NCBI RefSeq assembly: GCF_022869865.1
Contig: NZ_CP094984.1
Location: 1,054,001-1,118,000, forward strand
Source: Arthrobacter zhangbolii
Lineage (GTDB): Bacteria > Actinomycetota > Actinomycetes > Actinomycetales > Micrococcaceae
DNA: 64,000 bases
Direction: 5' to 3'
Of the stretch, positions 22,519 to 47,421 are shown piece by piece (the stretch's first letter is position 1; each line of letters starts with the position of its first letter). The position numbers were made by a program, and so were the translations under genes. The notes beneath the pieces are model-generated. The model did not search any database. It worked only from the letters and a program-made list of their open reading frames with translations, and was not told the DNA's origin.

Positions 22519-22590
22519 TCCGCCCTGGTGTAATGGCAGCACCCCGGCCTTTGGAGCCGTGGAGTATAGGTTCGAATCCTATGGGCGGAA
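22519..22590 (+). tRNA. tRNA-Gln (anticodon UUG)
   Basis: A full cloverleaf can be drawn: a seven-pair acceptor stem (TCCGCCC at 22519-22525 with GGGCGGA at 22583-22589), anticodon loop CTTTGGA containing TTG, and a T arm with GGTTCGAATCC. Position 73 is A and CCA is not encoded. It lies just before glmU, as in many actinobacteria including mycobacteria. The downstream glmU message may be processed from the same transcript. Confidence 0.96.
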
Positions 22591-26628: not shown

Positions 26629-27059
26629 CGCTGTCGCGGTGTAGGTAGCCGGCAGTCGAGAATGGGGTAGTTTTCCAGCGCCCGGAAGTCCGCCCGGCCA
26701 TTGTTTCGCTTCTGTAACGGGGCCTAAAATGGAACCAGCCGTTAGGGCTCCCAAAGCGGGGCCGGCGTCGGGAGGCCTCCGAGACTGGGCCACCCCCATC
26801 CCGGCGCCGGTCCCTTTAACACCGTCTCCTAGTGCGCCGCCTTTAGTCCATCCCTTAACGCACCGCCTTGGCGGGATTATTGCGGGTGTGCTTTGCAGGA
26901 CGTCGGTTTCCTCCCCCGGAACATGCGTTTGTATCTAGACGTGGCACGGGCGCAGGCGTATGCTCCAAGCCACTGAGCATACTGACCGGTAGCTACCGAT
27001 AGCTGTTGAATCCGTGATCCGGATGTCTCGCTAGCGTTTTTGGGGGCTGGGGCTGACCC
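26629..27059 (+). promoter_or_regulatory. Intergenic region before the first LAL regulator, with promoter and palindromes
   Basis: No gene is visible in these 431 bp. A sigma-70-like promoter reads TTGTTT (26701-26706), 18 bp spacer, TAAAAT (26725-26730). Nearer the gene are an 8-bp inverted repeat (GTATGCTC at 26958-26965, GAGCATAC at 26975-26982) and a perfect 12-bp palindrome CGGTAGCTACCG (26987-26998). The closely spaced repeats look like operators. A G-rich ribosome site lies just before the ATG at 27060. Confidence 0.5.
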
Positions 27060-29672
27060 ATGAAGAATGCGTCTAATGTCGCTGACCTGGTGGGACGCGC
27101 CGCCACGTTGGACAAGCTGTGCGAAAGCCTGACTGCAGGCGGCGCAGGGGCCATCATTCTGGGCCGTGCAGGCGTCGGCAAGACCGCCTTCCTCCGGGCT
27201 GCAGCGGATCGCTTGCAGGCCGATTTCCACATCGTGTATCTGCGGGGGAGCGCCATTTCGGCGCAGACACCCTACAGCGCTCTTTCCGTCCTGATCAGTG
27301 AGCTTCCCGAATCGGTGGCGGACAACCCCCTCCGGCTCCTGCAGGAGCTGAGCCGGAGCCTTGCTGCGAAGGCCCGGGGCCTGAGGGTCCTGCTTGCTGT
27401 AGACAACGCCGATCGTTTGGACCGGTCAACCTGCATGGTGTTGTCCCAGCTGTTGCGGCGGGGAAGCATTGCGGTACTGGCAGCGGCCTCCCTCAGATGG
27501 GAGGCCGGTGATGAGCTGCTGGATCTTTGGAGCGAGGGGCTGCTGGAGCGCCTGGAGCTGGAGGCGCTTTCGGAGCGGCAGACCAGGGACCTGATGCAGC
27601 AGATGCTCGGTGGCACGGTCTCCTCGCTTGCAGCAGGGACAATGTGGCGCGAGGGGGAGGGAAGCCCCAGGTACATCCGGCTCATGACCGGGCAGCAGGT
27701 GCTGTCCGGCACCCTGATGAACCGGGGCGGTGTCTGGGTTCGGACCGCCCCGTTTATCCCCACGGGAGATATCAGTGAAGTAGTGGACACGGTCCTGGAC
27801 CGGCTCGATGTCCGGGAGCGGAGGTTCGTGGAAATCCTTGCGCTGTGCGCCGGCATGCCGATGGACACGGCCCTGGGCCTGGTTCCGTCGAGCGTCATCG
27901 ACCTGCTTGAAGAGCAGCAGGTTATAGAGGTTGGCGGCCGGGGTCCGCGGGTAGCGCTTGCTGCCGGAACCGGCGCGAGCATCATTGCCGAGAGTATGGC
28001 TCCGGGCCGGAAGCGGCACCTGTGGGAGGAGGTTTCCTCCCTGATGGATCCCGCGGCAATGGAGCCGGCGGAGCTGGTGTCCTACGTTTCATGGACCATG
28101 GCCTGCGGGGAACTGCCGGCACCGGATGATGCCCGTCGGGCCGCATATGAAGCCAACAACAACGCCGACGGGCGGTCCGCCCTCAGGTTTGCACGGGCGG
28201 TGCCGTCTGATGTGCGCGGCCAGGAACTGGTGCTCGAAGAGCTCCGTGCCCTTTATGCCCTCGGCGATCTGGAGGAAGCGGTACGCGTTTTCCAGCGGAT
28301 CGAACAGCGGCTCGATCCCGCCAGGAGGAGCAGCTACGTTCCGCTCCTGCTGCTGCATGCCCGGGCGCTGTCCCGGCTGCCCGGCGCAGGTGACCCCGCA
28401 CCGGTACTGGCAGCGATCGAGGCAACTCGTCCGGAAGCAGGAGATACCGCGGATCATGAGGCAGCGGCAGTGCTGGTGAAAGCCTCGCTCGCAGCTGACC
28501 GCGGAAACCCCGGCGGGGTCCATACAGAACTGGCACAACTGGCCGCAGACCGCCGGCTAAGTCCATCGACCCGGATTCAGGTGCGCGTCCTCCAAGCGAA
28601 CACCTTGGCGTTGTCCGGTCAACTTCATGAGGCCTTGGAAATAGTCGAAGGACTTGGCGCCCCGTTGGAGTATCCGGTGACCGCGAGGAGTTCAGAAGAG
28701 GTCTGTACACGCATTTTCGACACCTATCTGCTTGCAGGCGAGCTCGAGCGGGCCGCCGAATTTGTCCGGGCCTTCGATGAGGCCGGCATCCGGCCCTCCT
28801 ATCATGGCAGCGCCGGTGAACTGGCGCAGGCACTGCTGGCGGTCTGGAAAGGCCAGCGTGCCGCTGCAGCCGAGGCACTTGCGGGCGGTGTCGGTCAGCT
28901 TGCCGTCCACGATCCCCGGGACATGATGCCGCTGGCAAGAACATTGACCGCGTGGATCCACCGGCAACAGGGGCAGAACTCCGCTGACGCCGGGGAACCC
29001 GCCGAGTCACACCGCCCAAAATTCTTGCCCGATAGTTTCCGGCGCTTTCAGATCTCGTATTTCTCCATCCTTGCCGGGGACCACGACCGTGAAACCTGCT
29101 GCAGGTTGCTGCGGACGGAGGCGATCCAATCCGAGGGAGAGGGAAACACCGCATATGCCCTGCATTTCCTGGCTGCGGCCTTGCGGTTTGGCGACCGGGA
29201 GGCAGCAGCCGCGATCCTCCGGCTGCATCGGGATACCCACGGGCGCTTCGGCACGCTGCTGCGGGAGTATGCGGCGGGCCTGCTTCAGGCCGATCCGGGC
29301 CGTTTGACCGCGGCGGCCCGGGGTCTTGGCGGCCTGGGGCAGCATCAGCTGTGTCTGGCAGCTGCCCGGACGGCAGCGGAACTATTGTCCGCGGGCACCG
29401 CGGAGGAGGACCGCAGGCTGGCAAGGACAGCAAGAGACCTGGCGAATTCAAGCCTCCGCCGGATGGAACATGCCGGGGGACAGAGGGAAACGCTGGCAGA
29501 ATTGAGCGAATTTGAAGCTGATCTTGCGCATCGTGCGGTTACGATGGCGACCACTTCGCAAATAGCCCGGGAGCTTAACCTGTCTCCTCGAACCATCGAG
29601 TGGCATCTGGGCAAGATCTTTGCCAAGCTCCACGTCTCCGGGCGTGCCGAGCTTGCCGAAGTTCTGGCCTGA
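27060..29672 (+). CDS. LAL-type LuxR regulator 1 (AAA ATPase, TPR-like, atypical LuxR HTH)
   Basis: An 870-aa large ATP-binding regulator of the LuxR family. Walker A is GRAGVGKT (35-42), and a Walker B-like LLAVDNADRLD is at about 110-120. A long alpha-helical region resembling MalT/TPR domains fills the middle. The C-terminal 60 residues form the DNA-binding domain, but its first helix is unorthodox: LSEFEADLAHRA stands where LTxREREVL is expected, while NLSPRTIEWHLGKIFAKLHV keeps the recognition helix. LAL proteins switch transcription when ATP and an inducer are bound. Only 23 bp separate it from LAL 2. It shares the class of LAL 3 (both read WHLGxIFxKLxVSGRAEL). The target and inducer are unknown. 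Confidence 0.88.
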   Translation: MKNASNVADLVGRAATLDKLCESLTAGGAGAIILGRAGVGKTAFLRAAADRLQADFHIVYLRGSAISAQTPYSALSVLISELPESVADNPLRLLQELSRSLAAKARGLRVLLAVDNADRLDRSTCMVLSQLLRRGSIAVLAAASLRWEAGDELLDLWSEGLLERLELEALSERQTRDLMQQMLGGTVSSLAAGTMWREGEGSPRYIRLMTGQQVLSGTLMNRGGVWVRTAPFIPTGDISEVVDTVLDRLDVRERRFVEILALCAGMPMDTALGLVPSSVIDLLEEQQVIEVGGRGPRVALAAGTGASIIAESMAPGRKRHLWEEVSSLMDPAAMEPAELVSYVSWTMACGELPAPDDARRAAYEANNNADGRSALRFARAVPSDVRGQELVLEELRALYALGDLEEAVRVFQRIEQRLDPARRSSYVPLLLLHARALSRLPGAGDPAPVLAAIEATRPEAGDTADHEAAAVLVKASLAADRGNPGGVHTELAQLAADRRLSPSTRIQVRVLQANTLALSGQLHEALEIVEGLGAPLEYPVTARSSEEVCTRIFDTYLLAGELERAAEFVRAFDEAGIRPSYHGSAGELAQALLAVWKGQRAAAAEALAGGVGQLAVHDPRDMMPLARTLTAWIHRQQGQNSADAGEPAESHRPKFLPDSFRRFQISYFSILAGDHDRETCCRLLRTEAIQSEGEGNTAYALHFLAAALRFGDREAAAAILRLHRDTHGRFGTLLREYAAGLLQADPGRLTAAARGLGGLGQHQLCLAAARTAAELLSAGTAEEDRRLARTARDLANSSLRRMEHAGGQRETLAELSEFEADLAHRAVTMATTSQIARELNLSPRTIEWHLGKIFAKLHVSGRAELAEVLA

Positions 29673-29695
29673 AGCTGACGTTGGGGGGAATGGGA

Positions 29696-32395
29696 ATGCA
29701 CGGGTCGAACCTGCGGTCACTGGCAGGCAGGGATGATGTTCTTGCCGCCGTGCTTCAGAGTCTCCGGCGTCCGGGCGGATACGGCGCCGTTGTCGCGGCC
29801 GAAACGGGTCTGGGTAAGACCGCTGTCGGGGCTGCTGCGGCTCGTGCGCTGAACACCGAAACCCCGGTGTACTGGGTTTACTCCAGCCCGGCCCTGACGG
29901 CCGTGCCATACGGTGCGCTTGCTGCCCTGCTGCCTGACCTTGCGCCGGAGGAGACCGGATCGCCGCTGGCGGTTATGCGTGCCCTGACCGCGCGGCTTGA
30001 TCTCCATGCTCGTCCGGGCCGGACTCCGGAAAAAACAGTACCCGTGGTGATCGTGGATGATGCCCATGACATTGACCCACCGAGCCTGGACCTCCTGGCA
30101 CAGCTGCTGGATGCCGGACGTATCCGCCTGCTGATCCTCACACGCGCATTCTCCGACGTATCCGCTGTACTTCCGCATATGTGGGACGGACAGCTTAGCC
30201 GCCACCGGCTCACGGCACTGACAGAAGCCGAAACCCAGCAGCTGTGCGAAGAGGAACTTCAGGGGCAGATCAGTGCCACCGCCGCCATAGAACTGGCCCG
30301 CCTGACCGGTGGGAATCCCATGTATCTGCTGGCACTGATCGAGGAATCCGTGCGAAGCGGCGTACTCCTCCAGCGGCACGGAATCTGGGTCCTTTCGGAC
30401 GCCGGGCCACCATTGGGTGGAAGGGTGGGAGACCTGGTCAAAGCCCAGCTGAGAGGCTTGGCGGCTGAGGACCGCGCCACCCTGGAATCCATCTGCCTCG
30501 CTGAACCGCTTCCGTTGTCCGTTGCGTTTGAATTGAAAATGCACAGTTCCGTAGACACACTTGTGGAGTTGCTTCTTATTCAGGTGGTAACGGAAGAGGA
30601 CGGCCGCACCGCGCTCCGGCCGCTGCATCCGCTTTACGGCGAGGTTATCCGCCGCATGGTTCCGGCGGCCCGCAGCTCCAGGTTGCATAAACAGCTGCAG
30701 GAAGTACTGCCCGGTGTGTGCGTGGGAGCTGAAGGGCTGGTGCGCTGGGTCGCATGGTCCCTGGACCTGGGCGCCCCGGTCCAGGCGGATGCATTGTTGA
30801 AGGCTGCAGATGCCGCCAATAACCGGTCAAACCCCCGCCTGGCACTGCGCATGGCCGATGCCGCCGCCGGGGGACCGCAGCAGGTTCAGGCTCGGATACA
30901 GAAGGCACGTGCCCTGCTGCAGCTGGGAGACGCGGATGCTGCCGCAACAGCGGCAGCGGGAACGCTGGAAGAAGCACCGGATCTGGAAAGCCTGAAACAG
31001 GCGGTGATGGTGGAAGTGCGCCTTTCCATGGGATCTGCGGGAGGAAACGGTTGGGCAGTGGGTCTGGCCGAACGGTGGACGCGGGCCGTTGAACACCTGC
31101 CCGGAGTTTCCGCCGCCGAGGTGGTCCGCAAGGCACACGGGGGAGCGCAAATGCTTCTGCTGCTGGGCAGAGTCAGGGACGGGGATTATGCAGAGGCCGA
31201 ACTTGAAATGGCCCCGGCACTGCAGCAGGCGCGCGAAAGCGGAGCCCAAGAGCGCATTCTCTTCCTTGAGGCGCTGACTGCGGAGGTCCTTCTGGCCACC
31301 GGGCGGTCCAGGTCCGCACTGGATCACAGCCGGGCAGCGATGGCCATGCTGCAGATGGAGGCACCGGGTGCGCTGCTCTACCGCCCCTTTGTCCTACACC
31401 GTCATCTCGCCGCCCTACTCTGGCTCGGTGAATGGGAGGAAGTCCGGGAGTGCGTGGCCTCGGCAGATTCCCCGGTGCAGCAGACACTGCTTCATCTGGC
31501 CGGAATTGCAGACTTCGCGCTCGGGCTGTCCCGTCTGCGTACCAATTCGCTGGACGCGGCCATCAGGCACTTTACCGCTGCAGCGGAGGCGGCGCAGGAC
31601 AACGATACCGAGGGACTGCTTCGCCTCTCCCAGGCACTGGGATCATTCGCCGCCGGGGTGCTGGGGCAGCGTGAGCTTGCAGGGCGGCTGCTTCGTAGCG
31701 CCGAAAGCACACCGCCGCGGGGACCGCTGCAATACCAGCTGCTGGCGGAAGGCATGATTGCCGGTGCCCTGGCAGCACGGGATTCAGACGATGCTTCACT
31801 GCAGCGGCTGCGCGATGCTGCGGATGCGGCGCAGGAGCGCTCCTGCAGTGCGGTTGAGTTTACCCTGCGGCATCTTGCCTTTCGGATCGGTGATTTCTCG
31901 GAAGCCGCCCGGTTGCTGAAAGTCTCCGAAGGCCTGGAAGGCCCCCAGGCCCCTGTCCTGAACAAAGTGGCGCGCGCCGTCGTCGACCAGGATGTGGCTG
32001 CCCTCGTGGAGTTGGCGGCGGGTCCCGACTCTGACCCTGAAATGGATCTGCTGCTTATCCGGCAGTGTCTGTATGAGGCGTTGCGGTTGGCGCGAAAGGG
32101 CAATGACAGGGCGTTGCTGAACCGCATTCAGCGCCTCGTTGGCAGGCAGGGCAGCGGACGCACGCCATTGCCGGAACTGACCCGGCGGGAACGCGATGTT
32201 GCTGCCCTGGTTGCGGCGGGCCACCGCAACGCGGAGATTGCCCGACAGCTGAATCTCTCAGTCAGGACTGTGGAAGGGCACATTTACCGGACGTACGAGA
32301 AGCTGGGCATCAGCCGGCGTGAGGAACTCAGGGCACGTTTCCCTTCCCTGGAGGACGCAGCGGCAGACTGGAAGCCCCTGTCGCAGCCCGAGTAG
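29696..32395 (+). CDS. LAL-type LuxR regulator 2 (AAA ATPase with canonical LuxR HTH)
   Basis: An 899-aa LAL regulator. Walker A is AETGLGKT (about 35-42), Walker B is VVIVDDAHDID (about 117), followed by helical repeats. The C-terminal HTH is canonical: ELTRRERDVAALVAAG, then NLSVRTVEGHIYRTYEKLGI. ATG at 29696 is used because the G-rich site at 29683-29689 is well placed for it and too close for an ATG at 29690. It starts 23 bp after LAL 1, so the two are probably co-expressed and one is of each HTH class. After it comes a 419-bp gap. Regulated genes are unknown; the nearby polysaccharide cluster is an obvious candidate (inference). Confidence 0.9.
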   Translation: MHGSNLRSLAGRDDVLAAVLQSLRRPGGYGAVVAAETGLGKTAVGAAAARALNTETPVYWVYSSPALTAVPYGALAALLPDLAPEETGSPLAVMRALTARLDLHARPGRTPEKTVPVVIVDDAHDIDPPSLDLLAQLLDAGRIRLLILTRAFSDVSAVLPHMWDGQLSRHRLTALTEAETQQLCEEELQGQISATAAIELARLTGGNPMYLLALIEESVRSGVLLQRHGIWVLSDAGPPLGGRVGDLVKAQLRGLAAEDRATLESICLAEPLPLSVAFELKMHSSVDTLVELLLIQVVTEEDGRTALRPLHPLYGEVIRRMVPAARSSRLHKQLQEVLPGVCVGAEGLVRWVAWSLDLGAPVQADALLKAADAANNRSNPRLALRMADAAAGGPQQVQARIQKARALLQLGDADAAATAAAGTLEEAPDLESLKQAVMVEVRLSMGSAGGNGWAVGLAERWTRAVEHLPGVSAAEVVRKAHGGAQMLLLLGRVRDGDYAEAELEMAPALQQARESGAQERILFLEALTAEVLLATGRSRSALDHSRAAMAMLQMEAPGALLYRPFVLHRHLAALLWLGEWEEVRECVASADSPVQQTLLHLAGIADFALGLSRLRTNSLDAAIRHFTAAAEAAQDNDTEGLLRLSQALGSFAAGVLGQRELAGRLLRSAESTPPRGPLQYQLLAEGMIAGALAARDSDDASLQRLRDAADAAQERSCSAVEFTLRHLAFRIGDFSEAARLLKVSEGLEGPQAPVLNKVARAVVDQDVAALVELAAGPDSDPEMDLLLIRQCLYEALRLARKGNDRALLNRIQRLVGRQGSGRTPLPELTRRERDVAALVAAGHRNAEIARQLNLSVRTVEGHIYRTYEKLGISRREELRARFPSLEDAAADWKPLSQPE

Positions 32396-32814
32396 TCTGC
32401 CGGGAAAACACCAGTAGGTTTTACTCGGGCGCAGCCATTGGGCACTTCGTAGGGTTGGCAATGTTACTCGGGGTTCAGCCGGCGCGGTCCTACCGGTTCT
32501 GCCTGCAGCGTTTTGAAGAACATCCGCGGTTCGGGGGGTAACAGCGGATGTCACGGCTCCGTGAATGTCACGGCAAGACACTGCCAGGCCGTACCGCTAG
32601 GCTGCTTCGGCGTCCCGAGTCCCACATACGGAGCCGGCGGCGTCGATGCCCTCTGAGACCGGGGCGTCCCCCCAGCCGCCGCCGGCTCCTTCTGTCTCTT
32701 CTTCCGACGCTTGTTTTCCGTATTGGTGTGTCATAGATCGCCACCCGAGCGCTTTACTACCGGACACACGTACTCCGGCGCTATCCAGGCCCGGCGGACA
32801 GATGGAGCCCATCG
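32396..32814 (+). promoter_or_regulatory. Repeat-rich gap before LAL 3
   Basis: No gene is seen in 419 bp. It contains TTACTCGGG twice (32421-32429 and 32464-32472), an inverted repeat ACATCCGC/GCGGATGT (32520-32527 and 32544-32551), a direct repeat ATGTCACGG (32548-32556 and 32565-32573) and an 11-bp stem at 32630-32689. The TACTCGG core is also a half-site of the palindrome at 41090-41108. The region is plausibly a promoter with several regulator sites. Confidence 0.4.
32630..32700 (+). terminator. Long-loop hairpin followed by a pyrimidine tract
   Basis: GGAGCCGGCGG (32630-32640) pairs perfectly with CCGCCGGCTCC (32679-32689), and TTCTGTCTCTTCTTCC follows. The 38-base loop is long for a terminator, so this could also be a leader structure for the downstream gene. 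Confidence 0.4.
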
Positions 32815-35145
32815 ATGGATCTTGCCGGCCGCCCCATGGCCCGCACCGCGACCCGTGAGGATCGGACCGCGTCGGTTCCGCCCTTATCTGCACAGCTGCT
32901 GCCGCAGGTCCAAAGTGCTGCTGCGGCAGCCGGGGATGCCCTGGCCGCCGGTAAAAGCGTGGTGATTTCCGGTGCGGCCGGAACCGGAAAGTCAGCGGTC
33001 CTGGCCCGTGTCCTGGGACAACTCAGCGGGGAATACTCCGTGCTGCGCCTGCGTGGGGCCGCGTCCCTGTCGGAAAAACCCTTCGGCGGTCTCTTCTGGC
33101 TGCTTAGCGAGCTGCCGCCGGAGACACTGTCCAACCCGGTCTACGTGCTCCAGTTTGTCCGGCGCGTACTGGAGGAAAAGGCGGCAGGCGGCCGGCTTGT
33201 CCTGGCGATAGAGCATGCAGAGGACCTGGACTCGGTCAGCATAGCCATCCTGCTGCAGCTCTGCCGCGGGGGGTGTGCACAAATGCTCGCAACGGTCCGG
33301 AACGTGGCCGCCTGCCCGGAAGATTTTGTGCACTGGTGGGCCGGAGACCCCGTCCACCGCGAAGACCTCATTCCCCTGCGGCCAAGCGGCACCCGGCTGC
33401 TGCTCGAGGGCATGGCCGGCGCGCCTGTGTCCAGCCGCCTGCTAATGGAAGTGCAGGCACGAAGCCTGGGTAATCCGCGGCTGGCCGCCCTGTTCTTTGA
33501 AGAACAGCTCCTGGCACGGACGGTCCTCAAACGAAGGGGTATCTGGGTATGGACAGGCTCCGTCTCTTATGCCGGAACGCTGGCTGAGCGGGTCGATTCA
33601 GAAACCGGCACCCTTGGCTCCGCTGAAAGGCTGGCGGTCGAGACTCTTGCACTGACTGGCGGGCTCCCTCTGGAGGTATTGCTGCGTCTGGCTGACCCGG
33701 CAGCGGTTGAGCGGCTTGAGGAGAGCGCACTCGTTGAAGCCAGCGGGCAGCCGCGTGCGCTGCGGCTCAAGGATCCGCTGCTGGCCGAAGCAGCGGCCGC
33801 GCTTGTGCCGCACGGCCGTGCAGCGGAAATCCGGGCCCGGATTGCCAGCCGTTCCGCTTCCCGAGAGGACATCGCGGCACCGTCCGGGGCATTCGGGGCT
33901 GCGCCGGGAACTGGTGGCCGTGAAGGACAATTACTCGGGCTTCTCCCCGGTGAACCGCGTTTTATGGCGGTATTGCGCGCGGCACGCGAGCTGGCGGCCT
34001 GCGGGCAATGGCTTGAGGCAATACGGTCAGCGTCCATGTGCCTGGACACGGTCCTGATCAACCCTGCTGCACCCGGTCTGCAGCGGAGCGTGCTCTCCGA
34101 GCTCTTCCACATCTTCCTCAGCTGCGGTGAGCTGCGCCTGGCCGCCAGCCTGCTGGAACATACCGATTCGTTCCTCTCAGGCATGGAAATTCTCGGCAGC
34201 AATGACCTGTGCGAGGGAATGGTTCAAGTGCTGGGCGGCCGCGCAGACCGCGCCCTGGATTACCTGCAGCGGGCGCTCGTCCAGCTTGACCAGGAGGAAA
34301 CGCCCGAGCTGGCACAGTTGGCAGCAACTGCTGCGGCATACGCGTGTGTCCTCCTGAAAGACCGGCGGGCAGGACTGGATTACCTCGATGTCGCCGCAGT
34401 TGCAGGGAAAATCCGGGCCGCTGAGGACAGCACCGGCGCCGCAGCGGATCTCATTCGTTGCTTCTCCGGGCTTTGCGCGGCCCGGGGTATGGCCGGAGAC
34501 CCGGACACGGTAACCGTACCGTCCGGCGGATGCGCGTCGTTGCCCGCTGAATCAGCGGGATTACAGGATCAGCGCAGCGGGCGGAGCTGTACATCGGCCG
34601 GTGCGAAGCAGACGGTGGCCAGGCTGCCGGTATTGGCAGCGGCTGCGCTGCAGGGCTGCAGCGGCGCAGCAGAGATGCTCCGCGAGGAAGTGCGCGGGTG
34701 CAGCGGCACGGCCGCAGACATGTACCTGGATCTGGCCCGCGGCCTGCTCGAATCCGATGTCCCATGCATGCTGAGTGCAGCCGAAACGGCGACAGTGCTG
34801 GGCCACTTCCTCATTGCCTACGAGGCAGCCGGCGGGGCAGCCCGGCGTGCCCGGGAACAATCCGACCGCCAGGGGCTGCGGGCTGCACGGCGGATCGAGA
34901 ATGCTAGCTACCGGATGCTGCTGGCTGCCAACTCGGTAACGGACCGCCTGCTGGAGCTTTCCGAGTTCGAGCGGGAACTCGCACTCGGTGCGGCCGCAGG
35001 CCGGAGCAGTTCGCACCTGGGTACCGCACTGCACCTGTCGCCGCGGACCATTGACTGGCATCTGGGCCGAATCTTCCAAAAGCTACGTGTATCCGGACGC
35101 GCGGAACTGCGTGAGTGCCTGAAAACTGAGCGGCAGCAGACCTGA
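32815..35145 (+). CDS. LAL-type LuxR regulator 3 (ATPase with altered Walker B, atypical HTH)
   Basis: A 776-aa LAL protein, the shortest of the five. Walker A is intact (ISGAAGTGKSAVL, about 53-65), but the Walker B position reads LVLAIEHAEDLD, with Glu in place of the usual Asp. The helical middle includes a Ser/Gly/Cys-rich patch at about 560-610. The C-terminus (LSEFERELAL, then LSPRTIDWHLGRIFQKLRVS) matches the atypical class of LAL 1. ATG at 32815 has GGAG eight bases upstream; an in-frame ATG at 32836 is possible. It appears monocistronic, flanked by gaps of 419 and 285 bp. The altered Walker B raises the question of whether it hydrolyses ATP. Confidence 0.86.
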   Translation: MDLAGRPMARTATREDRTASVPPLSAQLLPQVQSAAAAAGDALAAGKSVVISGAAGTGKSAVLARVLGQLSGEYSVLRLRGAASLSEKPFGGLFWLLSELPPETLSNPVYVLQFVRRVLEEKAAGGRLVLAIEHAEDLDSVSIAILLQLCRGGCAQMLATVRNVAACPEDFVHWWAGDPVHREDLIPLRPSGTRLLLEGMAGAPVSSRLLMEVQARSLGNPRLAALFFEEQLLARTVLKRRGIWVWTGSVSYAGTLAERVDSETGTLGSAERLAVETLALTGGLPLEVLLRLADPAAVERLEESALVEASGQPRALRLKDPLLAEAAAALVPHGRAAEIRARIASRSASREDIAAPSGAFGAAPGTGGREGQLLGLLPGEPRFMAVLRAARELAACGQWLEAIRSASMCLDTVLINPAAPGLQRSVLSELFHIFLSCGELRLAASLLEHTDSFLSGMEILGSNDLCEGMVQVLGGRADRALDYLQRALVQLDQEETPELAQLAATAAAYACVLLKDRRAGLDYLDVAAVAGKIRAAEDSTGAAADLIRCFSGLCAARGMAGDPDTVTVPSGGCASLPAESAGLQDQRSGRSCTSAGAKQTVARLPVLAAAALQGCSGAAEMLREEVRGCSGTAADMYLDLARGLLESDVPCMLSAAETATVLGHFLIAYEAAGGAARRAREQSDRQGLRAARRIENASYRMLLAANSVTDRLLELSEFERELALGAAAGRSSSHLGTALHLSPRTIDWHLGRIFQKLRVSGRAELRECLKTERQQT

Positions 35146-35244
35146 ACCGATCCCGGGAATGCGCGGAAGAGCCGTTTACCGGGTGATCCACACTCCCAAA
35201 CTACGTAATCATGCACGGTCCCTGAACGCCATTCCCAAGTAACC

Positions 35245-35271
35245 GAGTAGCGCAACTAGGGACGGCTACTC
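35245..35271. promoter_or_regulatory. Inverted repeat upstream of LAL 4
   Basis: GAGTAGC (35245-35251) and GCTACTC (35265-35271) are perfect inverted copies separated by 13 bases. They contain the same GAGTA/TACTC half-sites as the palindromes at 41092 and 47558, spaced about one helical turn further apart. The site lies in the 285-bp gap between LAL 3 and LAL 4. Confidence 0.45.
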
Positions 35272-35430
35272 ATGTACTGCAGCGGAGGCCTTAATACGCT
35301 GGTGCCAGACAGCATCGCCGGTTCCGTCCGCAGGACGGAACCGGAACACAGCGGCCACCCGGTAACGAACCGGCAGAACTGATTTGACGAAACCGGATAT
35401 CACCGACATTCGATAGAAACAGGTCTCACA

Positions 35431-38241
35431 GTGCAGCTACATAACGATCACCAGTCCCATCACCGCCGCACGGGCGGGGCCCCGCTCCACAGCGGAGCAC
35501 CGGATGCCTCCGGACCCGCTGTTCCCTCCGGTCCCGCTGTTCATGAGACGCCCACCGCGGGTGCGGGCGCCGCCGTCGTCGGCCGGGAACGGGTGCTCGA
35601 AGAGGTGCTGCAGTCCCTCGCCGGCACGGCACAGGGTGCCGGATGCGTGCTCGTAGGGGAAAGCGGCATTGGCAAGACGGCCGTAATGCAGCACGCTCTG
35701 CGGCACCTGGGCGATGAGACGTTCGTGGTGCAGGTCCGGGGCTCCGAGTTCGCCGGGCGCACGCCTTTTGGCGCATTAACGTTTCTTCTCTCGGACCTGG
35801 ACCCCGAACTTTCCAACCACCCGGTGATGATCCTCCGCGGCCTCACGGAACTGATCAGGGAACGCGCCAACGGCCGTCCCGTGCTTTTGGCGGTAGACAA
35901 CGCCGAGGAACTGGACGAGTTTTCCGCCATGGTGCTCACGCAGATGGTGCTTAACCGCAGTGCCGGAATGCTGGTGGCTTTCCGTGACTTCAGTTCGGCC
36001 CCCGGCGAATTCACGGGCCTCTGGCGGGATGGCATTCTCACCAGGGTAGACCTGGAGCCGCTGACGGTCCTTGAGGCAGCCGCCTATCTGGGTTCGCTGC
36101 TGGGCGGAAAAGTGTCCCGGGCCGCCGCTGCGGCTATACACGGCTATGCCGGCGGAAACCCCCAGCTGCTCTCCCTGGCCAGTTCCGACTTCCAGGACTC
36201 CGGGCGGTTGCGTATGCACAACGGCAGCTGGGTGCTGGCGCCGGGGGAGGATATCCGCGGCGGACGTGTCGCCTCGGCCGTGCTCAACAGCCTCAACGGG
36301 TTGTCGGCAGGGCAGACCCAGCTGCTGCAGCTGCTCTCCATGGCCGGTTCGCTGCCGCTGCCCGTGGTCCTGGCGCAGCTGGACAGCGCCGAACTGGACG
36401 AGCTGCAGGAACACGGCATGGTTGCCCTGGACATCCGCCCGGTCCCTGACGTCAGAATCAGCAGCCCGGTGCTGGTTCGCTCCTTACGGTCCGGACTGGG
36501 GCCGGCCCGGCAGCGCCGGCTTTTTGAAGAGTTGGCTCCCTTCCTCAATACCGTCGAGGGATTCGTCCTGGATGATGTGCTCCTGGCCCGCTGGCTGGAG
36601 GCCATTGGCGAGGTGCCGCCGGCCCAGCTCGCCGTGCGCGCAGCCCGGCGGGCCACAGCTGCGGGAAATCCCGACAGCGCGGTTGCCGTGCTATCAGCCG
36701 CTTTCAATACGCAGGAAGAGAACGCGGGCGCCGTCGTGGAACTCGCACGGGCACGAACAGAGCAGGGCGAGTACGGTGCTGCGCTGGGTATCCTTTCCCG
36801 TTACCGGGGGAGCGAGGCAGCTCCCGACGCCGGTGACCGGATTCGGCTGTTGCTGGCAGAATGCCGCGTCCTCTGTATCGAGGCCACCGGGCTCCGGGAT
36901 CCCCGCTCCGCAGCAGCACCGGCAGAGCCCGCCCGGATGCGCCACACGGACCTGTTTTCTCAAGTAGAGGACGAGATTACCGCCCTGGGGAAGACGCCTG
37001 GCATCGACATCGTGGAGCTGAGGCGCGAGCTGATTCTGGCCCGGGCAGAATGCCACTCCGCCCACGGGCGTTTCCTGGATAACGCGACCTATCTGGCCTC
37101 CGAGGAGGTGGAGACGGCGGCCGCGGATCTTGAATTCCGTATTCTCCGGTCTGCCTGGCTGTGCGAGGCATGGGGCATGACCAGCCGCCAAGATGACGCG
37201 GTGGAACTTGCTGCCCAGATGGAGCGGTTGTTGCCCGGTGCCGGTCTCAGCGCCGGGACCTATGCCCGGGTGGCCGGCAAACTCCTGCACACCTATCTGA
37301 TCACCGGGGAGCTGCACGCGTGCGAACGGTTGCTGGATTCCGCGGCGGCAGCGGGGATGGAGGGTACGTATACCGAACTGGGGCAGGGACTGCTTCATGC
37401 CTTCGCCGGACGGCCCGAGCCGGCCCTCGCCGCCCTGCTTCCGGCGGTAGACCAGCTGGCGGTGGGCGGTCCGGCAGCGTTCCTGCCCCTGGCGGCGGCT
37501 GCAGCCGCCTACTGCCACGCCATGAACGGGCGGTTGGACGAGGCACTCCAGTACCTGCAGATACAACGCGGCGCAGCCGACGGCGGGCCTTGGACCGTAC
37601 GGCGCGGTGCCAGGCACTTCGCTGCTCTGGCTGAGGCAGCGCTGGGGGCGGAAACAGGAAGCCGCCGCTTCGCTTCCCTTGCAGCGCAGGACCATAAACG
37701 CAGCGCCTATGCGTATGAACTGCTGGCCCGCCTGACGGCCATGCGGCTGGGGGATGAGGACAGCCTGGACGAGGTACTGTCCGTGGCGGCAAGCCTGCAG
37801 GGGGACTTCGCCGCGCTCTGTGAAAGCTATGCAAAGGGACTGGGCAATGCGGACGCCCAGCTGCTTCTCCGGGCCTCCGAAATGGCAGGAAACTCCGGGC
37901 ATCAGCTGCTGGCCAGGGAAATCTCCGAACATGCCCTGGGGATCGCCTCGGGTGCGGGGGACCGGGCAACCGTCCGCTTCATCCACCGCAGCCGCAGGGC
38001 CACGGGCCCCGAAACAGCCGCGGAAGCTGCTGATGAAATCCTCGGGGCACTGACTGCCAGGGAGCGCTCCATCGCCCGCAAGGCGGCAGCCGGCACAAGC
38101 AACAAGAAAATCGCGGAAGAACTGGGGATCTCGGTCAGGACGGTCGAGGGGCACCTTTACCAGGTCTATTCCAAACTCCATGTTGGCAGCAGGCGGGAAC
38201 TTGCCCGCACCATTGCGGAACAGGCAGGAGCAAAGAAATGA
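35431..38241 (+). CDS. LAL-type LuxR regulator 4 (AAA ATPase with canonical LuxR HTH)
   Basis: A 936-aa LAL regulator, the longest here owing to a 45-residue His/Pro/Gly-rich N-terminal tail. Walker A is VGESGIGKTAV (about 74-82), Walker B is VLLAVDNAEELD (about 150), then a long helical repeat region. The canonical HTH is ALTARERSIARKAAAG, then GISVRTVEGHLYQVYSKLHV. The start is GTG at 35431 with only a weak AGGT site; later in-frame GTGs would trim the tail. The stop overlaps LAL 5's start (ATGA at 38238-38241), indicating coupled translation of the two regulators. Confidence 0.88.
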   Translation: MQLHNDHQSHHRRTGGAPLHSGAPDASGPAVPSGPAVHETPTAGAGAAVVGRERVLEEVLQSLAGTAQGAGCVLVGESGIGKTAVMQHALRHLGDETFVVQVRGSEFAGRTPFGALTFLLSDLDPELSNHPVMILRGLTELIRERANGRPVLLAVDNAEELDEFSAMVLTQMVLNRSAGMLVAFRDFSSAPGEFTGLWRDGILTRVDLEPLTVLEAAAYLGSLLGGKVSRAAAAAIHGYAGGNPQLLSLASSDFQDSGRLRMHNGSWVLAPGEDIRGGRVASAVLNSLNGLSAGQTQLLQLLSMAGSLPLPVVLAQLDSAELDELQEHGMVALDIRPVPDVRISSPVLVRSLRSGLGPARQRRLFEELAPFLNTVEGFVLDDVLLARWLEAIGEVPPAQLAVRAARRATAAGNPDSAVAVLSAAFNTQEENAGAVVELARARTEQGEYGAALGILSRYRGSEAAPDAGDRIRLLLAECRVLCIEATGLRDPRSAAAPAEPARMRHTDLFSQVEDEITALGKTPGIDIVELRRELILARAECHSAHGRFLDNATYLASEEVETAAADLEFRILRSAWLCEAWGMTSRQDDAVELAAQMERLLPGAGLSAGTYARVAGKLLHTYLITGELHACERLLDSAAAAGMEGTYTELGQGLLHAFAGRPEPALAALLPAVDQLAVGGPAAFLPLAAAAAAYCHAMNGRLDEALQYLQIQRGAADGGPWTVRRGARHFAALAEAALGAETGSRRFASLAAQDHKRSAYAYELLARLTAMRLGDEDSLDEVLSVAASLQGDFAALCESYAKGLGNADAQLLLRASEMAGNSGHQLLAREISEHALGIASGAGDRATVRFIHRSRRATGPETAAEAADEILGALTARERSIARKAAAGTSNKKIAEELGISVRTVEGHLYQVYSKLHVGSRRELARTIAEQAGAKK

Positions 38242-40973
38242 CAATCTGGGGTCAGAGCCGTCAGCTGTTCGGACGTGAACGCGAACTCGCGGAGGTCGCC
38301 GGACGGTTGCTGGACCCCGGGCTGCGCGGCGTCGTACTCCTTGGCGACGAAGGCATCGGCAAGTCCTCCCTCGCGGAGCAGGCGGCCGAGAGCCTTTCCT
38401 CGATCATGCTCCCTTATTACGTCTGCGGCAGTCCCGTGCTCTCCAGGATGCCCTACGGCATCCTGTCCACCTACCTCGGCCGGGCCACCGCGGCGGAGAT
38501 GGAATCCCCGCTCACTGTCCTGCGGACTGTGCGGACACACTTCCAGCGGCTGACGGAAACCAACGGCCTGCAGACGCTGCTGGTGGTGGACAACGCACAA
38601 TACCTGGATGAGGCCAGCGCGCATCTGCTCACCCAGCTTGCCATGTCCGGCGAACTCCGGCTGATGGTCATTTCCCGGGCACGGGCACCCCGGATCCACG
38701 AACTGCTCTCCCTGGCCAGGGACGGGCTGCTCGCGCGGATCGACCTGGGCCCGCTGTCACACGAGGCAGTTCACGAGTTCTGCGTCAGCGTGCTTGGCGG
38801 TCCGGTACTGCAGGCATCCACCACGCTCTTAAACCGCATCTCCGGAGGCAATCCGCTGTACGTCAAGGAGCTGCTGGGACGTGCCCAGCGGCAACAGCGG
38901 CTGGTTGAAGCAAACGGAGCCTGGTTCCTGCGGGGCAGGCCGGACTGTCTGGATACCTCCCTGGTAGACTTGGTGAAGAGCATGCTCGGTTCCCGCACCC
39001 CGGCTGAACGGAACGTCCTTGAAACCCTGGCACTGGCCGAACGGCTGCCACGGTCCGTCCTGTCGGCAGTGGCCGACGACGAAGCCGTCCGTTCGCTGGT
39101 GATCGACGGCATTGTGGAAATCCTGCCGGACCGGGATGAATCCGCCCATTTGGTTCAGCTCCTGCACGAAGAGATCATCCGCAGCCTGGTCCCGGCCGCC
39201 CGCAGTGCGGAAATCCGCGCGCGGGTCCTGGGCTGCTACGCCCCGGGTTCCCCGGGCAGCTCCATGAACCCGGGTGACATCAGTACGCTGCTCCGTCAAA
39301 CTGAATGGGCGTTGGACTGCGGAGACCGGCTGCCCGGAGAGCATTTGCTTGCGGCCTCCCGGGCGGCGAACGGGATAGGAGACGCTGCCAGGGCACAGCG
39401 TTTCGCAGCCGCCATAACCGCCGTGCCTTTCCGTGCCGCAGCCGAAGTGGAGCTCGCCGTCGCGCACGCCAAGCAGGGCAGCTACGGGCAGGCCCGGGAC
39501 CGGCTCGATGCGTTGGGGAAGCGGATGAGTGCGGACAAAGCAGCCGTGTGGGACCGGCTGACCCTTCACCGGGCGATGTTCGTCAGCGCGCTGAGCCGGA
39601 CCAGCGGGCCCGGCGAGGGACTAACTGCCCTGACAGATAAGTGGAAGACCGCTTCGGCTCCGGCCGAAGACGACCCGGGCGTAGCGGAGCAGGTACGGGT
39701 GTCCATGGAGGTCCTCAACGCGTCCGCACTGATTCTCGACGGCGAGTACGAACAGGCATGCACCCTCCTTGCAGCCCTTGACACCGGTGGCCTCCTGCCG
39801 GATGCGGCGGAACTGGCGGTATTGATTCACGGCCTCTACGCCGAGGTCCTGACCGCGTGCGGGGACGTGGAGCCTGCCCTGCAACAGGCCGCGGCCGCCG
39901 CGACCATGCTGGATACCGGAGGCGGAGAGCTGCAGGGGTATGCCGGGTTTGTTTTCGTCCGCCAGGCCCAGGCCATGCTGCATGGCGGCCGGTTTGGCCA
40001 GCTGGAACAGCTGCTTGCCCGGATGCATTCCGTTCCCCAGCACCAATTGACCCTTCTCGGGGGCAGCCTGGGTGTATTCGAAGCGGCCCTTGAGATTCAC
40101 CGCGGCAGGCTCCACGACGGGTTGCGGAAGCTGCGCCCGGCGGTGGAAGCGTTGCGGGAAAACGATCCGGAACTGCTGCTCCCGTATGCCCTTGGCCTGG
40201 CCGGTTACGCTGCGACCGTGGTGGCTGACGGAACGCCCGCGGCAGGTTTCGTGGCCCAGGTTCCGACAGTCGGATACACCGGTCCGCGGCATCTGTGGCT
40301 CACGGCCCAGGCTTACGCCGCCGCAGCCGAAGCCTCACAATCCACCGAGGGTCCGCCCTCCGGCCGGCTTGCTGCGCTTGCCGCAGAGGCCAGGGCAGGC
40401 GGACTGCACAGCACCGAGAAGGACATCCTGGAACTATGCCTGGCCGTTGGCGACCTTACCCAGGTGGGGCGTCTGGCCGAGCTGACTGCCGATTTTGACG
40501 GTGCCGAAGCGCAGGCGCTGCATGCCTATGCCGTTGCCGTTGCCTCAGGCAACCCGGACCGGATGGTCGCGGCCGCCGAGGACGCAATCCGGGCACAGAA
40601 ATACCTCGTGGCGGTAGAAAGCATCGGGCATGCCATCCGTTTCTATGGCAACCACGGAAACCTGCGCCGCCAGCGCGCCCTGATCCAGCAGCTGCGGCGG
40701 CGCAGAGAGGAACTGGCGGGCGTTACTGTCTCATATCTCAGCCCGTCCCTGCATCTGGTCCGGCTCACCCGCCGTGAGCACGAAATCGTGGACCTGCTGC
40801 TGTCCGGTGCCACCACCAAGGACATTGCCGCCCACTTCACACTCTCCCAGCGGACGGTCGAGGGGCATGTCTACCGGATCTACGTAAAACTGGGGATCAG
40901 CCGCCGAGCGGACCTTGAATCTGCCTACCGTGCCCTGGAACCCGGACATCGGAGCAGTTCCCTGGTCAGGTAA
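38238..40973 (+). CDS. LAL-type LuxR regulator 5 (AAA ATPase with canonical LuxR HTH)
   Basis: A 911-aa LAL regulator. Walker A is LGDEGIGKSSL (about 34-42), Walker B is LLVVDNAQYLD (about 114), followed by helical repeats. The C-terminal HTH is canonical: RLTRREHEIVDLLLSGATTK, then LSQRTVEGHVYRIYVKLGIS. It overlaps LAL 4 by four bases and ends immediately before a pair of hairpins. It is the last regulator and the one closest to the polysaccharide cluster, whose first gene begins about 420 bp further on. Confidence 0.9.
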   Translation: MTIWGQSRQLFGRERELAEVAGRLLDPGLRGVVLLGDEGIGKSSLAEQAAESLSSIMLPYYVCGSPVLSRMPYGILSTYLGRATAAEMESPLTVLRTVRTHFQRLTETNGLQTLLVVDNAQYLDEASAHLLTQLAMSGELRLMVISRARAPRIHELLSLARDGLLARIDLGPLSHEAVHEFCVSVLGGPVLQASTTLLNRISGGNPLYVKELLGRAQRQQRLVEANGAWFLRGRPDCLDTSLVDLVKSMLGSRTPAERNVLETLALAERLPRSVLSAVADDEAVRSLVIDGIVEILPDRDESAHLVQLLHEEIIRSLVPAARSAEIRARVLGCYAPGSPGSSMNPGDISTLLRQTEWALDCGDRLPGEHLLAASRAANGIGDAARAQRFAAAITAVPFRAAAEVELAVAHAKQGSYGQARDRLDALGKRMSADKAAVWDRLTLHRAMFVSALSRTSGPGEGLTALTDKWKTASAPAEDDPGVAEQVRVSMEVLNASALILDGEYEQACTLLAALDTGGLLPDAAELAVLIHGLYAEVLTACGDVEPALQQAAAAATMLDTGGGELQGYAGFVFVRQAQAMLHGGRFGQLEQLLARMHSVPQHQLTLLGGSLGVFEAALEIHRGRLHDGLRKLRPAVEALRENDPELLLPYALGLAGYAATVVADGTPAAGFVAQVPTVGYTGPRHLWLTAQAYAAAAEASQSTEGPPSGRLAALAAEARAGGLHSTEKDILELCLAVGDLTQVGRLAELTADFDGAEAQALHAYAVAVASGNPDRMVAAAEDAIRAQKYLVAVESIGHAIRFYGNHGNLRRQRALIQQLRRRREELAGVTVSYLSPSLHLVRLTRREHEIVDLLLSGATTKDIAAHFTLSQRTVEGHVYRIYVKLGISRRADLESAYRALEPGHRSSSLVR

Positions 40974-41028: not shown

Positions 41029-41395
41029 CAGCGTTGCTGGGTAGTAGGGCAGGTACGTCCCGCCGACAGGACGAAATCCAGCTGACGAGCCGAGTATTGA
41101 GTACTCGGGTTCCTGTAGAGGACCGCTCCTACATTTGTTGCCAGTTCAAGGAAAAGGCAACCAGAAGGACGTCGGTCTCGAAATGGGCACTGAGATACAT
41201 GGTCACACTGCGCCGGAATCCTACCTGCAGGCAGTACCGCCGGTCGCGGCTGGGAGTACCAGCCGACCAGTCGTTCATGCGGCGAGCCGGACCGTCCCGG
41301 GACCGAGGGGAGCCGGGGCGGTCAAAGAGCACCGCCGATACGCCCCATCCGTTTTTGATCCAGCCGGGCTGCATACCTCCGACGGCGGTTCGGCC
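41029..41395 (+). promoter_or_regulatory. Upstream region of the polysaccharide cluster
   Basis: This region lies between the LAL 5 terminator and the preferred start of the initiating sugar transferase. It contains the palindrome at 41090-41108. Although the downstream frame is open through most of it, the third-base composition is less GC-biased than in neighbouring genes, so it looks more like a promoter and leader than coding sequence. Confidence 0.45.
41090..41108. promoter_or_regulatory. Palindrome CCGAGTA-N5-TACTCGG, likely operator
   Basis: A perfect 7-bp inverted repeat with a 5-base spacer lies upstream of the first polysaccharide gene. The inner GAGTA-N5-TACTC recurs at 47558-47572 with the same spacer length. 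Half-sites ten base pairs apart suit a dimeric regulator. Which protein binds is unknown. Confidence 0.55.
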
Positions 41396-42928
41396 ATGGC
41401 GCAGAGCCGCAGTACGGCAGACATCGTGCTGCCGGTCCAGCCGTTTGTTTTTCCCAGCTTTACCACGGCCCGGCACTTTGGGCAGGCCGGGCGTACCAAG
41501 AGCGCTGCTGTCGTATGGAACCGTCGCTACGCCAGGATCCTCACGGTTTCGGATGCGGTGGTGGTCTTCACCGCAGCACTGGTCGGTCACGCGGCCTGGT
41601 TCGGGCTGGAAGAAGCCAAGCTGCGCGTCGGACCCTTTGCGCCCACCTACCTCATCATCTCGTGCCTCATTGGCCTGGCCTGGATGCTCGCGCTGCAGGC
41701 CTACCGCAGCCGGGACGCCCGTATCACCGGGATCGGTACTGATGAGTACAAGAGGGTAGTCAACGCCACTGTTGCCCTGATGGGAACCCTTGCCCTGGTC
41801 TCCGTGGTCTTCCAAATCGACATCGCCCGTGGATACTTCGGACTAGTGCTTCCCGGCGGTACCGCTGGATTGATCGCCGCCCGGTGGCTGCTACGGCGAT
41901 GGCTGCAGATGCAGAGGCGGAAGGGGAAGTACCTCTCCCGCGTGGTTGTCCTGGGGCAGCCCCGGGACGTGCGGTACGTGGTGAACCAGATCGGTCGAAA
42001 GTCGCGGGCGGCCTACCAAGTGGTTGGCGTGGCGCTTACGGGCAAGAAAAGAGCCTGGCTTGAAGTGAACGGAGCGCAGCTTCCCGTTGTCTCAGACGCA
42101 GAGACGGTGGTTGAGGCCGTCGCGCGGGTGGGTGCAGACGCCGTAATTGTCGCAGGCCAAACCAAAGGGGGCAGCCGGTACATTCAGGAATTGGGCTGGC
42201 AGCTCGAGGAGTCCTCCACTGAACTGATTCTGACTACCGGGCTGACCAACGTCGCCGGGCCGAGGATTCACGCCCGGCCGGTGGAGGGTCTGCCTCTGAT
42301 GCACGTGGAGCTTCCTCAGTACACCGGTGCCCGGCACGCCTTCAAACGGATTTTCGACGTCGTGGTGTCGTGTGCTGCCTTGCTTGCCTTGGTGCCCCTG
42401 TTTGCCATGCTGGCAATCCTGGTCAAAAAGGACAGCCCGGGGCCCGTGCTCTTCCGGCAGGAACGCGTGGGACGGGGCGGCCGTAAGTTCCTGATGCTGA
42501 AATTCCGCTCAATGGTGGAAACGGCGGAAGACGATCTGGCTGGTTTGCTGGACCAAAATGAAGGTGCCGGACTGATGTTCAAAATCCAGAATGACCCCAG
42601 AATCACCCGGGTGGGTGCCTGGATGCGGCGGTATTCGCTGGATGAACTACCCCAGTTCTGGAACGTGCTGATTGGGGACATGTCCCTGGTGGGACCGCGC
42701 CCGCCGCTGCAGCGGGAAGTCGACAGCTATGAAAAGCGGGTCCACCGCCGCCTGTACATCAAGCCCGGCATTACGGGTATGTGGCAGACCAACGGACGCT
42801 CCAACCTGAGCTGGCAAGACAGTATCCGCCTCGACCTTTACTACGTGGAGAACTGGTCTCTGACCGGCGACCTCATCATTCTGTGGCGCACCGCTGTCCA
42901 GATGGTCAAGCCGCTGGGGGCCTTCTGA
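41396..42928 (+). CDS. Polyprenyl-phosphate sugar-1-phosphate transferase (initiating enzyme)
   Basis: About 510 aa. The N-terminal part has four or five membrane segments and a nucleotide-binding-like middle domain (VVVLGQPRDVRYVVNQIG); the C-terminal bacterial sugar transferase domain has FKRIFDVVVSCAALLALVPL, RQERVGRGGRKFLMLKFRSM, YSLDELPQFWNVLIGDMSLV, GPRPP and KPGITGMWQTNGRSNLSW. Such enzymes start each repeat unit by placing a sugar-1-phosphate on undecaprenyl phosphate. ATG 41396 gives the usual family length; an ATG at 41183 and a TTG at 41135 would add residues with no recognisable domain, and none of the starts has a strong ribosome site. It heads the exopolysaccharide cluster, downstream of a palindrome. 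Confidence 0.9.
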   Translation: MAQSRSTADIVLPVQPFVFPSFTTARHFGQAGRTKSAAVVWNRRYARILTVSDAVVVFTAALVGHAAWFGLEEAKLRVGPFAPTYLIISCLIGLAWMLALQAYRSRDARITGIGTDEYKRVVNATVALMGTLALVSVVFQIDIARGYFGLVLPGGTAGLIAARWLLRRWLQMQRRKGKYLSRVVVLGQPRDVRYVVNQIGRKSRAAYQVVGVALTGKKRAWLEVNGAQLPVVSDAETVVEAVARVGADAVIVAGQTKGGSRYIQELGWQLEESSTELILTTGLTNVAGPRIHARPVEGLPLMHVELPQYTGARHAFKRIFDVVVSCAALLALVPLFAMLAILVKKDSPGPVLFRQERVGRGGRKFLMLKFRSMVETAEDDLAGLLDQNEGAGLMFKIQNDPRITRVGAWMRRYSLDELPQFWNVLIGDMSLVGPRPPLQREVDSYEKRVHRRLYIKPGITGMWQTNGRSNLSWQDSIRLDLYYVENWSLTGDLIILWRTAVQMVKPLGAF

Positions 42929-42987
42929 TGGGTCCCGCCCCGCAATCCACCGAACCGCAACAAGACCGCCACCGGAAGGCAGGAAGC

Positions 42988-43428
42988 ATGGGAATCCGCA
43001 TCGGCTACGCGCCGGGAGCTTTTGACCTGTTCCACATAGGGCACCTGAACATCCTGAAGCACGCCAAGGCGCAATGCGATTACCTTGTGGCCGGAGTTGT
43101 CTCCGACGAGCTGTGCGAAATCCGTAAGGGACAGGTCCCCGTGGTGCCCCTGCCGGAACGGCTGGAGATAGTTGCCGGACTGGCATGCGTCGACCGTGCT
43201 GTCCCGGAGATCCTGCCGGACAAGCTCGACACTTGGAGGCAACTGCGGTTCAACGTCTTTTTCAAAGGGGACGACTGGAAGGGAACCGCAGCCGGTACGG
43301 ACCTTGAGAAGGCGTTTGAGGCGGTGGGCGTGGAAGTCGTGTACTTCCCCTATACGGTCCACACCTCCAGCACGCGTCTTCGCCGCAGCCTGGATCTCCT
43401 GAACGCCACGGCAGGGAGCGCGATATGA
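42988..43428 (+). CDS. TagD-like cytidylyltransferase family protein
   Basis: 146 aa from ATG 42988. GAFDLFHIGHLNILKHAK contains the HxGH nucleotidyltransferase motif, and the C-terminus carries the STRLRRSL variant of the second motif; size and sequence resemble glycerol-3-phosphate cytidylyltransferases, which form CDP-alcohols. An earlier ATG at 42928 overlaps the preceding stop (TGATG) and has a G-rich site; it would add 20 residues. Both starts are credible. The ATG of the next gene overlaps its stop. With the CDP-alcohol phosphotransferase at 53985 it suggests that a CDP-activated polyol is built and used in this cluster (inference). The substrate is not determinable. Confidence 0.85.
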   Translation: MGIRIGYAPGAFDLFHIGHLNILKHAKAQCDYLVAGVVSDELCEIRKGQVPVVPLPERLEIVAGLACVDRAVPEILPDKLDTWRQLRFNVFFKGDDWKGTAAGTDLEKAFEAVGVEVVYFPYTVHTSSTRLRRSLDLLNATAGSAI

Positions 43429-44621: not shown

Positions 44622-44650
44622 CCCGTACTGCAGCACGGCTAGGAGGGAAC

Positions 44651-45448: not shown

Positions 45449-45473
45449 TCCCAACGAATACGGGATAGTCCCA
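45440..45473 (+). repeat. Direct repeat spanning the stop codon of the copy-A anchor gene
   Basis: ACGGGATAGTCCCA occurs at 45440-45453 and 45460-45473. The first copy contains the TAG stop (45446-45448). Each copy includes GGGA/TCCC, able to form a short hairpin. Confidence 0.85.
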
Positions 45474-47398: not shown

Positions 47399-47421
47399 CA
47401 ACAAGTAGGCAAGTAGCAACA
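47392..47421 (+). repeat. Direct repeat spanning the stop codon of the first propeller gene
   Basis: CAAGTAGCAACA occurs at 47392-47403 and 47410-47421, 18 bases apart. The first copy contains the TAG stop (47396-47398), and the second supplies another TAG in the same frame (47414-47416). Confidence 0.85.

Follow-up and report, generated by a model that had tools for sequence, protein, structure and literature searches.

The locus and its genes

The window (a stretch of 64,000 nucleotides of the Arthrobacter zhangbolii genome) carries five open reading frames for large LuxR-type ATPase (LAL) regulators, which lie head to tail on the forward strand between positions 27060 and 40973 with no intervening gene. 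These are LAL A (27060–29672; 870 aa), B (29690–32395; 901 aa, or 931 aa from an alternative start at 29600), C (32815–35145; 776 aa), D (35431–38241; 936 aa) and E (38238–40973; 911 aa). The GerE helix-turn-helix (HTH) is matched above the Pfam cut-off in all five proteins, and AAA_16/AAA_22 is also matched in all five, above the cut-off in four and below the curated cut-off in C; a P-loop of the form GxxxxGK[ST] is found in A, C, D and E, with AxxxxGKT in its place in B. The first-pass annotation of this DNA had described five consecutive LAL genes with nothing between them, each with a Walker A motif and a C-terminal HTH; open frames and domains bear out both statements, the 899 aa that it gave for B fitting the later of the two starts. 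An apparent loss of Walker A in some LALs was an artefact of the regular expression used, as alignment of the A- and C-type proteins showed their motifs to be intact.

GerE is matched 13 times in the whole 3.46-Mb genome, with six of the matches in LAL-sized open frames; as five of these six make up the array, its occurrence is not a matter of chance. The other array proteins are 22–30% identical to A, and a tree splits the five into two clades, which we call X (A, C and D) and Y (B and E). Judged by sequence, they are paralogs, old and diverged. Paralogy had previously been argued from a shared G-x-W-V motif, which is present but weak evidence alone; the motif is common in this ATPase superfamily. 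The recognition regions also differ, reading SPRTIEWHL in A, SVRTVEGHIY in B and SVRTVEGHLY in D. An HTH swap was considered for D, which joins an X-clade body to a B/E-like HTH, and was set aside, as the X-type LALs of other genera carry this HTH too; the HTH tree, built from 66 columns, is poorly resolved. Against the NCBIfam model for AbsR2-type LALs (NF050132, cut-off 850 bits), four of the proteins score only 69–120 bits and C gives no match, and the NCBIfam MalT model matches B, D and E in the HTH only.

LAL proteins are about 700–1000 aa long; those of the array run from 776 to 936 aa, with both A and C shorter than 900. Across the 19 genomes compared (this one and 18 congeners), C measures 732–786 aa in the subclade to which the window belongs (eight genomes) and at least 900 aa in 10 of the 11 others, and the shortened form is still under purifying selection. 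With dN/dS at 0.09–0.30 for every gene over eight genome pairs, all five LAL genes are genuine and shaped by purifying selection. The 4-base overlap between D and E is present in 16 of the 19 genomes, that of the window included.

Behind the array, a gene for a polyprenyl-phosphate sugar phosphotransferase (Bac_transf; 41135–42928, forward strand) opens a polysaccharide cluster; its true start is probably later, at an in-frame ATG at 41183 or 41396. The variable polysaccharide/surface genes that follow (42781–60445) encode a cytidylyltransferase, a GT4 protein, a LamG/PKD protein, a CDP-alcohol transferase, Wzz, a Wzy-like protein and an SGNH protein, together with a beta-helix protein on the minus strand. 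The LamG/PKD gene (49602–53930, forward strand) encodes a surface-type protein of 1369–1442 aa with laminin-G-like and PKD domains, and related stretches recur in the polysaccharide clusters of several congeners. The right-handed beta-helix protein (Beta_helix, NosD) is encoded at 57390–59684; a 638-aa open frame opposite it on the plus strand matches no family and is likely to be spurious.

Conservation of the array and its pair unit

The array A–E stands in the same order, directly upstream of the polysaccharide cluster, in all 18 Arthrobacter congeners (among them A. citreus, A. gandavensis, A. luteolus and A. yangruifuii), and in each of the 18 the next gene encodes a polyprenyl-phosphate sugar transferase. 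The general order is rplY-pth-A-B-C-D-E-phosphotransferase-variable polysaccharide genes-sufS, the stretches that were fetched reaching sufS in 14 of the 18. In a tree of 52 rows from 11 genomes, the ortholog groups A, B, C, D and E are each monophyletic. Two congeners, G016 and G017, have the array split 2+3 between B and C, and the insert in G017 consists of a polysaccharide cluster (nine insert genes scanned). Several array frames are broken in a third, G013, a single-contig genome, through either decay or assembly error.

Beyond the genus, adjacent X-Y pairs of LALs are found in 24 of 25 Brevibacterium loci fetched, the remaining locus being cut off, and a gene with a phosphotransferase domain lies within about 10 kb of the pair in 12 of the 25, a comparison made with flanks limited to 10 kb and at about 40% identity. 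Other Micrococcaceae have one or two X-Y pairs, some with three LAL genes. These pairs in relatives show the unit of the array to be the X-Y pair, and the array thus consists of A-B, D-E and one additional gene of X type, C. By the same comparison, the regulators stay fixed and the polysaccharide genes behind them are exchanged. The link of the array to polysaccharide, suggested by the first-pass annotation along with the synteny search by which to check it, is upheld and is strong on this evidence of gene order.

A palindromic operator at two promoters

Two promoter regions of the locus, those of C and of the polysaccharide operon, share the palindrome CGRGTA-N5-TACYCG, placed 22–23 bp upstream of a −10 box TANNNT. 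The copy before C is CCAGTAGGTTTTACTCG (32411–32427, forward strand), with its −10 box TAGGGT at 32450–32455; that before the polysaccharide operon is CGAGTATTGAGTACTCG (41091–41107, forward strand), with TACATT at 41130–41135, and is the sole perfect copy of the palindrome in this genome. Allowing up to two mismatches and requiring TANNNT at 21–23 bp, the combination is found in 16 of 19 B-C regions (first 400 bp) and in 16 of 19 regions between E and the phosphotransferase gene (first 700 bp), as against none of 3800 coding stretches, each 400 bp long. A recognisable operator is absent before C in G005, G006 and G010 and before the phosphotransferase gene in G006, G010 and G017, among the 19 genomes.

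The spacing is narrowly set. At 35 intergenic sites the −10 box lies at +22 in 25, at +23 in six and at +29 in one, and TANNNT occurs at none of the 35 at any other offset between 10 and 35. Among 83 sites that lie elsewhere than in the two intergenic regions, six also have TANNNT at +22. Of the spacers, the five-base one alone is enriched: in the regions of the 19 relatives it gives 7, 12 and 25 sites with no, one and two mismatches respectively, and the other spacers from 0 to 12 give at most 0, 2 and 17. The palindrome centre would lie near −42 from the predicted transcription start, as in class II activators.

Across 16 whole Arthrobacter genomes (this one included) there are nine perfect palindromes, seven of them at the polysaccharide-operon promoter; a backward control pattern has 16 perfect matches in the same genomes, at places not listed. 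With up to two mismatches, this genome has 61 palindrome sites versus 163 for the backward pattern. The palindrome is thus not enriched genome-wide, and is special only in its location and its −10 spacing. With at most one mismatch, three of the four sites in this genome lie inside the locus, and one of these three, at 47557 (one mismatch), was rejected as an operator, since it coincides with the beginning of a coding sequence and TANNNT is missing at +22. Where the array is rearranged, in G016 and G017, the operator goes with it (weakly so in the B-C region), with a 2-mismatch copy directly after B in G017, and it does so across genera.

A structured RNA, R1, before the regulators

A second shared element, which we call R1, folds into a single long hairpin; its basal stem is long, it has a C-rich bulge, and 55 of 57 copies contain GAGAC in their loop region. 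The loop has 8 nt in most copies, and the bulge is kept across genera. Of 57 copies (55 distinct), 99% of alignment cells pair, and both sides have changed in 12 of the 17 base pairs; double changes fill 109 cells versus 23.8 ± 8.4 in shuffles and 1–6 in slid controls, in an alignment fitted to the model, which favours covariation. G-U pairs are common, which would suggest that the conserved feature is an RNA read from this strand and not a palindrome in the DNA. A search of Rfam 15 at the gathering score over the window and four loci returned only a tRNA, and even at E up to 5 no match fell on either R1 copy of the window. Taken as a comparative result, R1 is a solid structural RNA family.

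A covariance model built from 28 copies gives exactly two hits in each of 16 Arthrobacter genomes (this one included), all at the locus, and none in seven genomes of other families. Among 17 Arthrobacter genomes of the family sample, 16 have two copies and one has three, the extra copy again lying by the array. R1 is present in 136 of 245 family genomes, in 21 of 32 genera sampled; in an order sample of 198 genomes it occurs in 13, and outside the family there are only two weak hits (E 7e-4 and 9e-4). Over the 245 family genomes, R1 and LALs occur together in 116, R1 only in 20, LALs only in 10 and neither in 99, and the odds ratio of co-occurrence is 57 for R1-LAL versus 7.7 for R1-ANTAR, in a test uncorrected for phylogeny and with generic ANTAR matches.

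We distinguish two forms of R1. Type 1 (26737–26821, forward strand; model hit 26753–26821) lies between pth and LAL A behind a predicted −10 box TAAAAT (26725–26730). TANNNT stands 27–31 nt upstream in 23 of the 27 type-1 copies examined, the predicted start carries a small hairpin, and the end is U-rich; from these features we predict a gene for a small RNA some 85 nt long. R1 is found before A in all 19 genomes, in G010 inside an over-long ORF start, and type-1 copies also stand behind pth at four loci where no LAL follows. Type 2 (32625–32696, forward strand) lies within the predicted leader of C-D-E. This second copy stands between B and C in the subclade of the window (eight genomes), and so not on the polysaccharide operon; in the remaining 11 it stands ahead of the phosphotransferase gene. 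As the leader copy of this genome stands before C, it is the relatives only that suggest a direct role for R1 on the polysaccharide operon.

Outside the genus, the operator (at most three mismatches) together with a −10 box occurs within 450 bp upstream of R1 in 25 of 53 rows (24 of 51 distinct sites, two having been fetched twice; both types are pooled), as against 47 of 2120 random stretches; with at most two mismatches the count is 21 of 53. Such an operator is absent in the remaining 28 rows (27 of 51 distinct), including the type-1 RNA and some LAL operons, which points to the existence of other inputs. The genes behind R1 include LALs, phosphotransferase operons, sufS, and ANTAR and BTAD regulators, along with four further cases whose names come from visual inspection of the sequence: a metallo-hydrolase-like gene, a deacetylase-like gene with a glycosyltransferase, a transporter and mfd.

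At four loci R1 is followed by a gene for an ANTAR-domain protein, with an operator-like site (two to three mismatches) and a −10 box at +23. ANTAR genes with an R1 leader were seen in a single genus, in four of its genomes. ANTAR proteins were considered as the partner of R1 and rejected, since R1 lacks the ANTAR-target fold and co-occurs less strongly with ANTAR than with LALs; we keep these genes as possible R1 targets.

Discussion

We bring these observations together in a working model, in which the array is a dedicated and autoregulated control unit for cell-surface polysaccharide and its paired LALs activate the palindrome promoters; on balance we think this probable. The X (A, C, D) and Y (B, E) proteins, made as neighbours (A-B and D-E), would probably act together as ATP-switched activators. 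Upon an intracellular signal that switches them on, one or more of the LALs would bind CGRGTA-N5-TACYCG, whose centre lies some 42 bp upstream of where transcription is predicted to start, and would recruit RNA polymerase in the manner of a class II activator. There would be two target promoters, that of C-D-E, giving positive feedback, and that of the polysaccharide operon opened by the sugar phosphotransferase. We speculate that R1 adds a step after initiation, which might be attenuation or else competition for a shared factor.

The earlier suggestion of a 'dedicated, layered' control system fares well in its first part, as an operator at a fixed −10 distance, in 16 of 19 genomes at each promoter, fits an autoregulated system; that the control is also 'layered' is a reading of the sequence which we would offer only as a suggestion. 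As a description of the array it was incomplete, having overlooked the pair unit, the operator and the RNA element. We also entertain, more tentatively, a broader possibility: that paired STAND-LuxR activators and a new class of structured RNA, comprising a free small RNA and leader copies of like fold driven by the operator, might together switch the variable surface-polysaccharide islands of Micrococcaceae, with the leader copies of R1 attenuating or else competing with the small RNA for a common RNA-binding factor.

Other explanations of the operator and of the gene array need to be weighed against this model. The palindrome might belong to another regulator of the cell, for which seven further GerE matches outside LAL-sized frames supply candidates; the LALs would then be passengers under regulation themselves, or would act on other genes, sharing no more with the polysaccharide genes than a chromosomal hot spot. 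Both LAL arrays and polysaccharide genes are indeed inserted between pth and sufS, and some relatives have pth and sufS adjoining around one R1. However, the concentration at the locus of three of the four best sites in this genome (one being the coding start that lacks a −10 box at +22), and the way in which the operator follows the array through rearrangements and into other genera, make this unlikely. Somewhat less likely still is that the five are independent LALs with their own signals and unrelated targets, adjacent through tandem duplication alone: the age and divergence of the paralogs (22–30% identity to A) and the presence of two HTH classes would suit this, but order and linkage are kept through the genus, X-Y pairing is kept as far as Brevibacterium, and an operator is located within the array.

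For R1, one alternative is that it does no more than end the preceding operon (that of pth, B or E) as an intrinsic terminator. It has a GC-rich stem and then a U-rich tract, most strongly in the copies behind pth, and at 47 R1 sites (several from close relatives, with genes called by a codon model) the upstream gene is on the same strand in 32 and a same-strand downstream gene is missing in seven. Yet the upstream gene is divergent at the other 15 and the downstream gene same-strand at 40, promoter elements sit between the upstream gene and R1, and the GAGAC loop and C-rich bulge are conserved across genera. A terminator scan found none at the first copy and a short stem inside the second, its loop limit of 8 excluding the R1 bulge. 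We regard simple termination as improbable, and note that a terminator ending a type-1 small RNA is compatible with the data. That R1 is instead attachment-site-like DNA, repeated through insertion of LAL and polysaccharide islands, would explain why R1 copies flank LAL modules and why genomes with no LALs here have pth-R1-sufS. Against this are the compensatory changes and numerous G-U pairs seen on one strand, the occurrence of R1 before unrelated genes elsewhere (ANTAR, BTAD, deacetylase-like) and the absence of an integrase among the genes scanned, and we consider it very improbable.

Among known systems, MalT of E. coli and other STAND LuxR activators likewise join a large ATPase to a C-terminal GerE HTH; MalT is single and senses maltotriose, unlike the LALs of the array, which are multiple. 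In RfaH/ops, LoaP and EAR systems a long polysaccharide operon carries an RNA or DNA element in its leader, and R1, which has no Rfam match, resembles them in its position in polysaccharide-operon leaders. Antitermination of the RfaH/LoaP kind was considered and rejected, as exactly one NusG-domain gene is present in 23 of 23 genomes and a NusG paralog is absent.

The first-pass annotation held that LALs are normally single regulators, which is too strong: several Streptomyces polyene clusters hold three, and the LALs of the nystatin, tetramycin and candicidin clusters regulate each other as well as structural genes (PMC9774167). NysRI-III, TtmRI-III, FscRII-IV and AmphRI-III resemble the array in that three LALs serve one biosynthetic cluster, but they control antibiotics and each have a PAS-LuxR partner. 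The array, in contrast, consists of five LALs in X-Y pairs at a surface-polysaccharide cluster, is genus-wide, and has its own palindrome and RNA. PimR, a SARP-LAL, is also an activator that binds ATP, is encoded in its cluster and has a defined operator in front of its target, and it has no LuxR HTH and binds direct heptamer repeats (PMC5930380); the array site is an inverted repeat and the array HTH is a C-terminal GerE domain. ANTAR-target RNAs, which consist of two stem-loops with hexanucleotide loops, A at position 1 and G at position 4 (PMC8164766), are like R1 leader RNAs in actinobacteria, and some R1 copies precede ANTAR genes; by that definition R1, one long hairpin with a mostly 8-nt loop and a C-rich bulge, falls outside the class.

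Searches of open-licence literature turned up no account of how Arthrobacter and its relatives control their surface polysaccharide, and no report of R1 or of LAL arrays combined with polysaccharide genes. The exact operators, the promoter geometry and a covarying RNA with no Rfam match make the LAL target testable by binding and reporter assays, and the R1 model is a ready family whose genomic neighbours (regulators and polysaccharide genes) suggest a regulon.

Elsewhere in the window, a GT4-type glycosyltransferase is encoded after sufSU (62367–63425, minus strand), and a family search with the plus-strand open frame opposite it (62313–63518) gave no match. Two minus-strand open frames antisense to rplY and pth were discarded as spurious. 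A protein O-mannosyltransferase-like gene lies in the flanking region (4308–6233, minus strand), and a tRNA gene (22519–22590, plus strand) lies near a TetR/NUDIX gene and glmU.
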